This document shows, piece after piece, positions 43,792-47,685 of a DNA stretch of 48,263 nt. The stretch is from Bacteroidota bacterium. GTDB taxonomy: Bacteria; Bacteroidota; Ignavibacteria; UBA10030. Position numbers and translations under genes: made by a program. The stretch spans positions 1 through 48,263 of the forward strand of contig JAKAJH010000021.1 in the NCBI GenBank assembly GCA_021813905.1. The letters run 5' to 3'. Positions within the stretch are counted from its first letter, which is position 1. The number at the start of each line of letters is the position of its first letter. Under the pieces are notes generated by a model. It saw only the letters and a list, made by a program, of their open reading frames with translations. It ran no database searches and had not been told where the DNA came from.

Positions 43792-43841
43792 AGAAGTCAG
43801 ACGTCTTCCGTGGAATCTTCGAAGTTAGACGCCTGACTTCT
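43792..43841 (-). repeat. REP-like hairpin at the 3' end of the RAYT gene
   Basis: AGAAGTCAGACGTCT (43792-43806) and AGACGCCTGACTTCT (43827-43841) form a 15-bp inverted repeat with one mismatch and a 20-base loop, inside which lies the small palindrome CTTCGAAG. The transposase stop codon (43797-43799) falls in the arm next to the hydrolase ATG. RAYT transposases are linked to short imperfect palindromes of this kind, but no second copy was noticed in this window. Confidence 0.6.
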
Positions 43842-44354
43842 CTCCTTCCCTTCGCCACCCGGATCCAGGGCCTCCAGCACTTCTGCCATCGTTCCAAACC
43901 GTTCAAGCCAGAATGACCGATCGACGAGCGTGGTCCGTGTACGTCCCGCCAATTCGGCGAAGCTGGAATATTGCCACTCGCGCGGCGACGGCGGATTGCA
44001 GTGAATGTACCTGACTACCTGCAACAAATGAAGCTCATCGTTGATGTGTTTCGCTTTGGTCCGTGGCTGGAACAGGCTTCCGTGGCAGTCGTATCGGACA
44101 TTGACGGCTTTCGTGTACGCGCTCAACAGCGTGGCGATGTGCCTCCGAATGCGATCCTGCTCCGGAGTGATGACCCTGACGGCAAAGTGAAAATGTGTCG
44201 GCATGAGGCAATATGCCAGCGTGGCAACATCCGCTCTGAGGTAGTACCGGTACCGTTCGAGGAGGTACCGATAATTCTCGGGCTCCTTGAAGAGCCGTTC
44301 CTCATTGTTTGTGCGGTTGAAGAGATGATAACACTCCCCTTCAAAGAACTGCAT
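43797..44354 (-). CDS. REP-associated tyrosine transposase-like protein (Y1/HUH family)
   Basis: A 185-residue protein of the IS200/RAYT type. The HUH metal motif is CLMPTHFHFAVRV (~49-61), the N-terminus begins MQFFEGECYHLFNRTNNEER as in RAYTs, and SAYTKAVNVRYDCHGSLFQP (~80-99) precedes the region of the catalytic Tyr. The usual YIHxNPVxAGLV segment is shortened to YIHCNPPSPREWQYSSF, so ~8 residues of the family consensus appear to be missing. It is a domesticated-type single-copy nuclease rather than a complete insertion sequence: no direct repeats or IS ends are seen. It lies between gatD and the hydrolase gene. Confidence 0.82.
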   Translation of the reverse strand: MQFFEGECYHLFNRTNNEERLFKEPENYRYLLERYRYYLRADVATLAYCLMPTHFHFAVRVITPEQDRIRRHIATLLSAYTKAVNVRYDCHGSLFQPRTKAKHINDELHLLQVVRYIHCNPPSPREWQYSSFAELAGRTRTTLVDRSFWLERFGTMAEVLEALDPGGEGKERSQASNFEDSTEDV

Positions 44355-44377: not shown

Positions 44378-45766
44378 CTACTTCCGATACCTGGAAATGA
44401 ACTCCTCCACCTCCGGGATCCCGCCCTGGAAGATCAAATAGCCGTTGCTCGGCTCGCGATCCGTGATCTCACCGTTGACCGGTGTGAGCATGATGCGGTT
44501 CACTTCCGCCGGATCGCTCGTCTGACCGAGTGCCCATCCCAGCTTCATGTACGCCACCTCCGGCAGCATGTTCGCCGTGGGCACCACGCCCAGCTCCATC
44601 ATGTCGCGCCCCGTGTCGTACACGTACATCTGCACGTATCCCCACAGCGTCTGGACGGTCATGTACACCGCGATGTTCTTTTCTTTCGCGCGCTTCAGCG
44701 CCGGATAGAGCGGCTTGTTGACGTGCCCGAGGCCCGTCCCGGCGATCACGATCCCGCGATATCCGTTGTCGATCAGGGAATCGATGATATCGGGTCGCAT
44801 GTTGGGGTAATAATAGACGATCGCAACCTTCTCTTCGAACGCGGTGTTGACCACGACATCCTTGTCGGACCGCCGATGCCGGTAGTCCTGACGCAACGGC
44901 GTGATGGTCTCGCGGCTGACCATCGCGAGCGGGATGTCACCGATCGTCCGGAATGTGGAACGGTAGCTCGAATGCATCTTCCGCACGCGCGTGCCCCGGT
45001 GCAGCAGTCCGTACATGTCGGACGTGGGGCCGAACATGCAGACCATCACCTCCGCAATGTCGCTCTCGGCCGCCGCTTTGACGCTGTGCATCAGATTCAG
45101 CGCCGCGTCCGACGAGGGACGGTCGCTGGAGCGCTGCGAGCCGACCATCACAATGGGGACGGGGGAATTCTGCACCATGAACGACAGGATCGCCGCCGTG
45201 TGGTGCATGGTGTCGGTGCCGTGACCGATGACGATGCCCTGCACGCCCTTCTGCACCTCGCGTCCGATGGCTTCCGCCGTGCCGCGCCACTGCTCCGGTC
45301 CCATATTCTCGCTGAACACGCCGTACAGCTTCTCCGTCTCCAGATTGCAGATGTCCGCGAGCTCCGGGACGGATCCGTACAGCTCTCCGGGTGAGAACGC
45401 CGGAATGACCGCACCCGTCCGGTAGTCGAGCCGGCTGGCGATCGTGCCGCCGGTACCGAAAAGCTTCACGCGCGGTTTCCGCGGATCGAACGGAAATTCC
45501 TTCTCCGGGATCTTGTAGTGCGCTTCCTTGCGCCCGGTCGTGGTGATTCCCTCGATCGATGCCGCCGCAATCCCCACGTTGTAGCCCGACCGCAGCTTGA
45601 TCACGATATGCAGCGGATCGGCGGTCTCGGAACGAGGGAGGATGATTCCCGTGTACTTCCCGTGCGATGTTGTGATCTCGACGTCATTCCAGACTTGCGC
45701 CTGAAAGTTCTTGAGCGTGTCGAGGGCCGCGCCCCGGTAGCCTTTGTATGCGTCGCTGGCGGTCAT
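44378..45766 (-). CDS. gatD: Glutamyl-tRNA(Gln) amidotransferase subunit D (archaeal type)
   Basis: The asparaginase-like subunit of GatDE, which releases ammonia from an amide donor for conversion of Glu-tRNA(Gln) to Gln-tRNA(Gln). Length is 462 residues. An N-terminal SH3-like domain (~25-75, VEITTSHGKYTGIILP) distinguishes it from plain asparaginases. Active-site residues are present: Thr105/Thr108 in GTGGTIAS, Thr184-Asp185 in GHGTDT and Lys263 in RVRKMHSSYR. VGSQRSSDRPSSDAALNLM is the typical GatD segment. Its ATG overlaps the gatE stop by 4 bases (ATGA), so the pair is coupled. GatDE is known as an archaeal enzyme. Confidence 0.93.
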   Translation of the reverse strand: MTASDAYKGYRGAALDTLKNFQAQVWNDVEITTSHGKYTGIILPRSETADPLHIVIKLRSGYNVGIAAASIEGITTTGRKEAHYKIPEKEFPFDPRKPRVKLFGTGGTIASRLDYRTGAVIPAFSPGELYGSVPELADICNLETEKLYGVFSENMGPEQWRGTAEAIGREVQKGVQGIVIGHGTDTMHHTAAILSFMVQNSPVPIVMVGSQRSSDRPSSDAALNLMHSVKAAAESDIAEVMVCMFGPTSDMYGLLHRGTRVRKMHSSYRSTFRTIGDIPLAMVSRETITPLRQDYRHRRSDKDVVVNTAFEEKVAIVYYYPNMRPDIIDSLIDNGYRGIVIAGTGLGHVNKPLYPALKRAKEKNIAVYMTVQTLWGYVQMYVYDTGRDMMELGVVPTANMLPEVAYMKLGWALGQTSDPAEVNRIMLTPVNGEITDREPSNGYLIFQGGIPEVEEFISRYRK

Positions 45767-47685
45767 GCGGCACCTTCCTTGCGGAATCCGACGAGTTCCG
45801 CCACGCGCGCACCCGATGCGCGTCCTCGCAATGGTTTCATCGCCAATCCCATCCGGATCTCCGCTGATTTCTCAGGCTTGCGCACTGTGAGGCCCGCAAG
45901 CTGCTTCCGCGCCTCCGACACCGCCTGCCCGATCTCCTCGTCGCTCGCCGGCGGCGGAAGGGCGATCGCGTTCGTGCTTCCTGTTGACGCAACGTTCCGC
46001 ATCGCCTGGCGAAGACCGTCCCGCACCCCGGGCTGGCCGTGACCGGCATGAAGCAGCATGCCCATCGTGTCGGCGTTCAGCACTGACACGTCGAGTCCAC
46101 TCCGGCGCAGATCCTTTCTCCACTGAATGAGTGCAACGGCGGCAAGGGTGGAATCGATCTTCCACTCGGTCACCGCCTGTTCGAAGAGGCCAGCGAAGAC
46201 CGACGATGCGAGAGGCTGAATGACATCCGGCGGCAATTGAAGCTCGCGATACCACCGTTCGCGCTCCCAGACGGGGGAGGGAAGCGTCGTCCGGATCCGC
46301 TCGAGCCGGTCCGCCGTGATGCGCTTCGGTGGCAAGTCGGTGTCGGGATACATCCGATCCGGCCCCGGCAGAATCCGTTCAAATCCGTTCGTCCCGTCCC
46401 GAAGGGCCTGCCGCGTTTCCGACGGCACGCCGATGGTCGCTTCCTTCGCGCGAATGATGATCTCGCCGGCACCCATCGCCGCGTCCGTGTCCAATCCCCA
46501 CACCAGGATCACCGTATCGTCCTCCGAAGCACCCAACGCTTTCTTCACCGCCTGCCATTCGGAAGAGGAGAGCGTTTCGCTCGGGCTGTCGGAATGCGCG
46601 ATGTTCGGGAGCGTCGTGAGGCACGCGATGACGCGCACCCGATCCGAAATTTCGCGGGAAAAGAACGTATCAGTCTGTGTGGTCCAGCGAAGCAACCCGT
46701 GGAATCCGTGGAGGCGCACGGCGTTGACGATCATGCCGCTGGCGATCGCGTTGCGGACAGGCGTGAAACGGGTCTTCTTGAGCAGCCGGGTGACATTTTC
46801 CGTTCGCGACTGGAACGACTCGGGCGTGATGCCCCGCCGGTGCAGCTCGTCTCGCAGCCGCAGCAGATTCCACTGACGCATTGCCTCGTTGTAGGTCAGC
46901 AGCGGGATCAACGGGATACGCGGGACGCCTTTGATCTCGATCCGTGTGCCGCCGGTGACGCTCACGTTCACATCTTCCCGGGCGGCGCCGATGCCCGTGC
47001 GTACCCGGCCGGTGCTGCGGACGATCCGCCGCAGGAGTTGAGCCACGTCCGCCACTTCGGAGGGCGTCCGCATGTCGGGCGCGGTGACGGTCTCGATCAG
47101 AGGCATGCCGAGCCGGTCCGTCAGATAGACGCGCTGGTGGCCGGTGTCGCTTACCTCGCGGCAAGCGTCTTCTTCGAGCCCCAACTGAATAATGTGGATT
47201 GAGCGGTCTTTATACGGGACCGATCCATCCACCCCGACGATCGTGGTTCGCTGAAAGCCCGTCGGGATGCTGCCGTCCAGATACTGCTTGCGCGCGATGT
47301 GCAACTCATCCACCATGGCGCAGCGGTACAGCAGCGCCACGCCCAGCGCAATGTCGAGCGCCTGTTCGTCGATCATGAACGGCGGCGTGTCGTCCATCTC
47401 GTACGTACAGACCGTGTCGCGGTTGATGCGATAGACGATCTCTTTTTTCGTCTTGAACTCCATCAGCGCCGTGCCGTCGTATTCTCCGAGCTCCGACAGG
47501 GTCGGGCGCATGTGACGGAGGATCTCCGCGTGATAGTGATCGCTGTAGCGTCCGGCGGGACAGCGGCAGAAGAGCTTCCGTTCCGTGAGAAGCTGCTGAT
47601 GGATCTCCAGTCCCGACTTGAATCCAACGGCGGCGTAGTCGTCGGGCGTCATGTCGGCGAACGGTCTGAATTCGGATGGGGTCAT
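45763..47685 (-). CDS. gatE: Glutamyl-tRNA(Gln) amidotransferase subunit E (archaeal type)
   Basis: The kinase/transamidase subunit of GatDE, 640 residues. The N-terminus (DYAAVGFKSGLEIHQQLLTE, KLFCRCPAG) and TGIGAAREDVNVSVTGGTR are the GatE catalytic-cradle signatures; GatB of the bacterial GatCAB lacks the long insert seen here at about 330-480 (VNAVRLHGFHGLLR ... ILVWGLDTDAAMGAGEIIIR), which is the AspRS-like GAD domain of GatE. The helical YqeY-like tail ends GLAMKPLRGRASGARVAELV. Start ATG at 47685 is taken because the family N-terminus begins there; no clear ribosome site is seen. No GatC or GatA genes are nearby. Confidence 0.93.
   Translation of the reverse strand: MTPSEFRPFADMTPDDYAAVGFKSGLEIHQQLLTERKLFCRCPAGRYSDHYHAEILRHMRPTLSELGEYDGTALMEFKTKKEIVYRINRDTVCTYEMDDTPPFMIDEQALDIALGVALLYRCAMVDELHIARKQYLDGSIPTGFQRTTIVGVDGSVPYKDRSIHIIQLGLEEDACREVSDTGHQRVYLTDRLGMPLIETVTAPDMRTPSEVADVAQLLRRIVRSTGRVRTGIGAAREDVNVSVTGGTRIEIKGVPRIPLIPLLTYNEAMRQWNLLRLRDELHRRGITPESFQSRTENVTRLLKKTRFTPVRNAIASGMIVNAVRLHGFHGLLRWTTQTDTFFSREISDRVRVIACLTTLPNIAHSDSPSETLSSSEWQAVKKALGASEDDTVILVWGLDTDAAMGAGEIIIRAKEATIGVPSETRQALRDGTNGFERILPGPDRMYPDTDLPPKRITADRLERIRTTLPSPVWERERWYRELQLPPDVIQPLASSVFAGLFEQAVTEWKIDSTLAAVALIQWRKDLRRSGLDVSVLNADTMGMLLHAGHGQPGVRDGLRQAMRNVASTGSTNAIALPPPASDEEIGQAVSEARKQLAGLTVRKPEKSAEIRMGLAMKPLRGRASGARVAELVGFRKEGAA

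Follow-up and report, generated by a model that had tools for sequence, protein, structure and literature searches.

A GatE-GatD pair in a bacterial contig

The window, by which we mean the whole stretch of DNA that was analyzed (48,263 nucleotides of contig JAKAJH010000021.1, assembly GCA_021813905.1), derives from a bacterium of the phylum Bacteroidota, class Ignavibacteria, and carries on its minus strand the genes gatE and gatD. An initial annotation had proposed that this bacterial genome holds an archaeal-type GatD and GatE as a complete pair, and the coordinates and the NCBIfam cut-offs confirmed it. The first gene of the pair, gatE (45763..47685, 640 amino acids), was identified by its open reading frame (ORF), NCBIfam, structural models, and relatives, and the second, gatD (44378..45766, 462 amino acids), by its ORF, NCBIfam, Pfam, and a structural model. 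The two frames share 4 nt (45763..45766), gatE ending where gatD begins, an arrangement that may allow translational coupling. The gatE frame is open as far as 47799, and the ATG at 47685 aligned with a start codon in 23 of 28 relatives, in a comparison that is biased toward agreement because the script takes the nearest start in each relative.

Both proteins passed two NCBIfam cut-offs, GatD with 512.9 bits (cut-off 310) and 502.8 bits (cut-off 324), and GatE with 526.1 bits (cut-off 456) and 465.4 bits (cut-off 319.55), and the Pfam domains of the pair were GatD_N, Asparaginase N and C, and GatB_N. The archaeal GatDE structures 1zq1 and 2d6f were the top phmmer matches of both proteins as well as the best structural matches of their AlphaFold2 models, which are of moderate confidence (mean predicted local distance difference test scores of 78 and 76). 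The GatE model matched 1zq1_C with an E value of 4e-39 and 2d6f_D with 6e-37, and the GatE sequence aligned to both structures over almost its full length. Matches of the model to AspRS (E 3e-3, for the GAD-type insert) and to YqeY (E 0.05) were weak, and no separate GAD or YqeY domain was found in GatE by Pfam at E 0.001. Against the GatB model TIGR00133, GatE scored 112 bits, under the cut-off of 314.8.

Regarding the active sites, the initial annotation had noted Thr105 (45452..45454), Thr184-Asp185 (45212..45217), and Lys263 (44978..44980, all on the minus strand) of GatD, which we take to be its catalytic residues. This observation held: the four residues were identical in 84/84 type-b (the divergent subfamily described below) and 15/15 canonical GatD in an alignment from which rows spanning fewer than 350 positions were excluded. 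In GatE, residues E27, H29, E171, E172, D173, and E198, to which we assign ligand roles by analogy with GatB, were invariant across the 29 sequences aligned.

The view that the contig is bacterial and not archaeal contamination was also borne out. The GC content of the pair was 0.63 against 0.62 for the contig, and GC at third codon positions (GC3) was 0.85 and 0.79 in the pair and 0.74-0.79 in five other genes of the contig. These neighbor-like values, together with the recurrence of gatE in 28 further members of the class, with gatD following it in 27 of them, support the conclusion that the pair is not a contaminant of its contig. Among the neighbors that the initial annotation had called bacterial, rsmI scored above its NCBIfam cut-off and the TonB-receptor-like gene below; glnD, another gene of the contig, also scored above its cut-off.

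A divergent subfamily of GatDE

Sequence comparisons place the window pair in a divergent and distinct GatDE subfamily, which is labeled type b in the present study. The tree of archaeal and bacterial GatE that the initial annotation had suggested revealed a separate type-b group, and the window GatE fell outside the clade of canonical archaeal GatE, sampled here from Thermoplasmatota and the two PDB sequences. With FastTree, 21 canonical Thermoplasmatota rows were split from the 113 others (100) in a set of 134 GatE from which four fragments (L054, L094, L144, and L149) and one duplicate (L140) had been removed. With IQ-TREE in quick mode, the branch between canonical and type-b GatE measured 1.18 changes per site with a support of 100; the 25 bacterial rows lay on one side of a branch (94), with the eight archaeal type-b rows adjoining them. 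This second set had 49 rows, including the two PDB sequences and 25 of the 105 bacterial rows, with seven canonical rows left out. The rows nearest to the window GatE were those of two Aminicenantes metagenome-assembled genomes (MAGs), one Ignavibacteriales MAG, and one Bacteroidota MAG.

When 113 type-b rows were compared with 23 canonical rows of GatE, 88 columns were conserved alike, the expected ligands among them, and 16 were conserved yet different. Position 140 is N in 23/23 canonical rows and I140 in 113/113 type-b rows, position 135 is V in 23/23 and Y135 in 112/113, position 141 is T in 20/23 and P141 in 113/113, and position 448 is E in 23/23 and D448 in 113/113; at position 100, another of the 16, canonical E is replaced by T100. 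Three of these residues, Y135, I140, and P141, set type b apart from canonical GatE within a short segment of the window protein (residues 132-147, RKQYLDGSIPTGFQRT; 47245..47292, minus strand), and residues 134-144 around them were modeled with low confidence. Their Y..(I/L)P pattern resembles that of the GatB encoded in the same genome (RKNYFYPDLPKGYQ). This GatB also has Asp at the position matching D448, so that the change from E to D448 is little informative. Bacterial type-b GatD has, in addition, a conserved C-terminal tail of 24 residues (439-462 in the window protein; 44381..44452, minus strand), the motif of which was absent from the 15 canonical GatD and from the sole archaeal type-b GatD in the alignment.

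Distribution of the pair

Contrary to the isolated bacterial occurrence that the initial annotation had allowed for, a draw of 395 genomes from the phylum contained 29 with GatE above the cut-off, which are also 29 of its 371 good-quality genomes and represent 21 of 170 genera, all belonging to the class of the window; in the same draw, the other four listed genomes of the window's own family were without GatE. In 28 of these 29 genomes gatD lies downstream of gatE, and in the 29th the sequence ends at a contig edge. Two of the 28, G172 and G082 (L017 and L028), have approximately 975 bp between gatE and gatD, with only the start of gatD in view.

A scan of one genome per species across 84,980 species returned at least 560 stretches encoding GatE relatives, of which the best 80 were examined; the remaining 480 may include canonical archaeal GatE. 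Judged by their titles, the best 80 represent more than 10 bacterial phyla and two Thermoplasmatota, and include Ignavibacteria, Kapaibacterium, Bacteroidales, Aminicenantes, Planctomycetota, Cloacimonetes, Neomarinimicrobiota, Krumholzibacteriota, Fermentibacteria, Myxococcota, Acidobacteria, Gemmatimonadetes, Caldisericia, WOR-3, KSB1, GN15, and others, every one of them titled as a MAG or as uncultured. The GatE of genome G113, a member of the window's class, was identical to that of a Melioribacteraceae MAG, which agrees with Ignavibacteria as the most likely class.

tRNA charging genes of the host genome

The genome to which the window belongs (G000) has a size of 3.08 Mb, with a reported completeness of 100% and contamination of 0.15%. 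It encodes GlnRS (glnS, full-length), one GluRS (gltX), AspRS, LysRS, AsnRS, GatA, and GatB, each above its family cut-off; a second amidase-fold gene (L008) matched no GatA model at E 1e-100. Among the genes that had been named for a search, glnS, gltX, asnS, gatA, and gatB were looked for, and all were found. The model RF00005 gave 41 tRNA matches, 40 above the cut-off. Read by eye, the two tRNA-Gln genes (UUG and CUG) both have U1-A72 and G73, which is the bacterial type, and not A1-U72; the tRNA-Asn gene likewise has U1-A72 and G73. According to passages of one review, archaeal GatDE recognizes A1-U72 and the D-loop of tRNA-Gln, and residue 73 of tRNA-Gln is A73 in archaea and G73 in bacteria (PMC9499178). 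The single GluRS is bacterial and, counted by eye, has Arg at the position of Thermus Arg358, a residue described in part of a further article as important in Thermus GluRS and not in Helicobacter GluRS1 (PMC3927822). The physiology predicted by the initial annotation, an organism without GlnRS that relies on a non-discriminating GluRS, fails in view of the GlnRS, AsnRS, GatA, GatB, one GluRS, and bacterial-type tRNA-Gln of this genome. The combination that it regarded as counting against a functional pair, gatCAB and glnS with loss of the GatDE active site, was seen in part, glnS, gatA, and gatB being present and the active site intact.

Some further features of this genome were observed. In ORF translations read by eye, gatB is flanked by sucC-like and tpiA-like genes, and gatA immediately precedes a sucD-like gene (L009 and L007; C18 and C29); an integrative GatB-SucD model exists as PDB 9a6e. 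At C16:3072-3141 (L184), an apparent 5'-truncated copy of the adjacent tRNA-Leu scored below the tRNA cut-off.

Gene content and selection in GatE-positive genomes

Gene content was surveyed in 79 of 109 GatE-positive entries: all 29 from the phylum draw, plus 50 taken from the 80 named loci. The two sets that make up the 109 have at least one genome in common (G113/L059). Among the 29 genomes of good quality, 26 had glnS, 22 gatB, and 27 asnS, and none lacked both glnS and gatB. Among the 50 named genomes, for which completeness was not given, glnS was above the cut-off in 40, gatB in 16, and asnS in 43, and four matched neither glnS nor gatB. Overall, glnS was above the cut-off in 66 of 79 genomes. 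GatDE was kept in seven genomes of good quality that have glnS and asnS without gatB (G113, G156, G168, G192, G290, G353, and G385). Judged by gene content, the genomes of good quality do not depend on GatDE for their bulk Gln-tRNA or Asn-tRNA. The idea that a missing AsnRS or GatB forces GatDE into an Asn-tRNA role was rejected for these genomes on the same grounds.

Mean pairwise identity across 23 genomes was 80% for GatD, 61% for GatE, and 68% for GlnRS, although GlnRS was more conserved in some pairs (in G019/G357, 94% against 80% and 90% for the GatDE genes). The ratio of nonsynonymous to synonymous substitution rates (dN/dS) in nine near pairs was 0.005-0.06 for GatD (six pairs), 0.03-0.10 for GatE (eight pairs), and 0.02-0.13 for GlnRS (seven pairs), single values being rough because dS reached 2.5. 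In G192/G385, both among the seven gatB-less genomes listed above, it was 0.027 for GatD and not computable for GatE. Type-b GatDE therefore looks active and under selection, as far as such ratios and intact residues indicate.

Type-b GatE and GlnRS in Thermoplasmatota

A set of 32 Thermoplasmatota genomes, 31 of a draw, searched for both types of GatE, and G442, searched for type b, contained type-b GatE in eight, canonical GatE in 22, both in two MAGs (G464 and G473), and neither in four. GlnRS was above the cut-off in 7/8 genomes with type-b GatE, 0/20 with canonical GatE only, and 3/4 with neither; the difference between the first two groups has a Fisher p of 7e-6, which is not corrected for kinship. 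Bacterial-type GlnRS genes were accordingly present in 10/32 of these MAGs, contrary to reviews stating that archaea are without GlnRS.

In the five glnS regions that were fetched (G458, G473, G464, G449, and G453), genes for tRNA-Gln (four regions) or tRNA-Glu (three) adjoin glnS or lie within approximately 1.5 kb, and the tRNA-Gln genes have A1-U72 with A73 or G73 when read by eye. In G473, glnS adjoins a prenyltransferase-family gene that scored below the model cut-offs, one of the models being that of the archaeal-lipid GGGP transferase; in G458, the contig that carries glnS also has nucS, and gatD adjoins a geranylgeranyl-reductase-family gene. These neighbors speak weakly against contamination of these two archaeal MAGs. 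In G449 (L230, 10323-10395), glnS is closely followed by a second tRNA-Gln(CUG)-like gene, the anticodon loop of which looks odd.

Neighborhood of the pair

Among 771 ORFs clustered from 81 regions (the 80 named loci and the window), no family other than gatE and gatD occurred in more than nine regions. Three bacterial neighbor families recurred, all generic when judged by eye: an ABC ATPase, a PhoH-like protein, and a secretion-type C-terminal domain. In the window and loci L011-L149, tBLASTn found tgt near the pair solely in G458, an archaeon, where type-b gatE has a gene for a bacterial-type tRNA-guanine(34) transglycosylase one ORF away (C13, L225) and gatD is divergent from gatE. A search for glnS or gltX within loci L011-L149 gave a single case, the glnS of G014 (C45, L038), which adjoins gatD and is convergent with it. 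In the window, a 185-amino-acid ORF on the minus strand (43797-44354), 23 nt downstream of gatD, resembles a REP-associated tyrosine transposase, with scores short of both cut-offs (NF047646, 48.6 bits against 80; Y1_Tnp, 22.3 bits against 23).

Possible roles of type-b GatDE

Taken together, the sequences show a pair with intact catalytic residues that is under purifying selection, forms a distinct clade, is frequently accompanied by GlnRS, and, by the gene content of the genomes of good quality, is dispensable for bulk Gln-tRNA and Asn-tRNA. The active sites, the preserved gene order, the constraint on both genes, and the frequent presence of GlnRS indicate that the enzyme works and that its role is not the bulk supply of Gln-tRNA. 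We tentatively propose, at slightly less than an even chance, that type-b GatDE is an accessory or repair amidotransferase for Glu-tRNA(Gln). GatD and GatE would form an active complex with this substrate, in which GatD would split glutamine to yield ammonia, while GatE would bind the tRNA, activate the tRNA-linked carboxylate with ATP, and convert it to the amide. Bulk Gln-tRNA(Gln) would come from GlnRS, and GatDE would convert the Glu-tRNA(Gln) that arises by GluRS error. Several points weigh against this proposal. An unchanged substrate alone leaves the fixed differences from canonical GatE unexplained, and the host tRNA-Gln has U1-A72, whereas archaeal GatDE reads A1-U72, as stated in a section of the review cited above (PMC9499178). 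The Arg of the host GluRS is linked to discrimination in Thermus, so that little Glu-tRNA(Gln) might arise. Three GatE-positive genomes of good quality have gatB without glnS (G247, G283, and G310), and within the class glnS is only weakly in excess where GatE is present (26/29 GatE-positive against 13/20 GatE-negative genomes, p 0.07), the 20 controls being the first listed in the phylum draw, all of the same class. The association of glnS with type-b GatE in Thermoplasmatota favors the proposal, although its figures are uncorrected for kinship.

A close rival, doubtful but nearly as plausible, is that type-b GatDE has been neofunctionalized and amidates a carboxylate other than that of Glu-tRNA(Gln), such as Asp-tRNA(Asn), a different misacylated tRNA, or an acid-bearing modified tRNA base; the pair would then, with the same degree of doubt, be kept because the cell requires its product no matter how Gln-tRNA is made. 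The long and fully supported branch between canonical and type-b GatE, the replacement of fixed or near-fixed canonical residues (I140, Y135, P141, and D448), and the GatB-like Y..(I/L)P pattern are in its favor, as are the extra tail of bacterial GatD, the seven gatB-less genomes that keep the pair alongside glnS and asnS, and the two archaeal MAGs that have both types of GatE. However, the gene neighborhoods give no candidate substrate, the tgt gene in G458 being the only instance among the loci searched, the D448 change says little, and the altered residues could instead suit bacterial tRNA-Gln. That type-b GatDE represents a third kind of tRNA-linked amidotransferase, with a substrate unlike those of GatCAB and archaeal GatDE and in hosts from many bacterial phyla and some archaea that charge tRNA-Gln by GlnRS, is a slightly more doubtful extension of this idea. 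We regard it as improbable that Gln-tRNA(Gln) comes mainly from GatDE, as it does in archaea, and that GlnRS is silent or plays a minor part. The intact active sites would fit such a role of GatDE, and four of the 79 genomes (G404, G406, G409, and G410) had no match to glnS (E 1e-30) or gatB (1e-60), while G422, G439, and G442 had only glnS matches below the cut-off and no gatB; however, the host has a full-length glnS, most GatE-positive genomes have glnS above the cut-off, and the tRNA-Gln genes of the host are of the bacterial type. The exceptional assemblies, for which no completeness is given, may be partial, since asnS is missing from G409 and G410 as well, and in G422 and G439 the match to glnS runs up to a contig end. 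Very improbable, in our estimate, is that the genes are vestigial or recently acquired and without a role. Their patchy presence in the phylum and absence from the four other listed genomes of the host's family would agree with it, whereas the low dN/dS (0.005-0.10), the preserved gene order, the contig-like GC and GC3, and the conservation of GatD beyond that of GlnRS, albeit not that of GatE, argue against it. An accessory or repair function on Glu-tRNA(Gln) is the proposal that we retain, with the reserve stated above and a new substrate as its close rival.

Comparison with known systems

In a review, GatDE is described as now found only in archaea and GlnRS as absent from all known archaea (PMC9499178), and part of another article likewise treats GatDE as an archaeal enzyme of genomes without GlnRS (PMC7373986). 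The coexistence of GlnRS, AsnRS, and GatCAB is already known, an excerpt of a further article counting 68 genera (PMC4206432). No report of bacterial GatDE was found among the titles and abstract openings listed in the open-access PMC literature; since the NCBIfam models recognize them, such bacterial genes have very likely been annotated automatically as GatD and GatE before. In this context, GatDE, hitherto called archaea-only, appears as an intact lineage in many uncultured bacteria, mostly alongside GlnRS, and the Thermoplasmatota MAGs with type-b GatDE mostly also have bacterial-type GlnRS. The reason for keeping two routes to Gln-tRNA together and the possibility of another GatDE substrate may now be tested.

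The window pair shares with archaeal GatDE (1zq1 and 2d6f) the same two subunits, fold, and GatD catalytic residues and a similar length of GatE. It differs in that its GatE belongs to a separate clade beyond the long branch and has fixed changes, its GatD has an extra tail, its host has GlnRS and bacterial tRNA-Gln, and the gene order is E-D, whereas D precedes E in the 15 canonical Thermoplasmatota loci that show GatD. With bacterial GatCAB, the likeness lies in the catalytic domain common to GatE and GatB and in the Y..(I/L)P pattern of the host GatB; however, the glutaminase is GatD, with an asparaginase fold, and not GatA, with an amidase fold, GatE is under the GatB cut-off, and the genome carries separate gatA and gatB. 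Regarding type I L-asparaginase, GatD has the same catalytic fold and also passes the cut-off of the broader asnASE_I subfamily, but it is distinguished by its GatD_N domain, its gatE partner, and scores that pass the GatD equivalog cut-offs.

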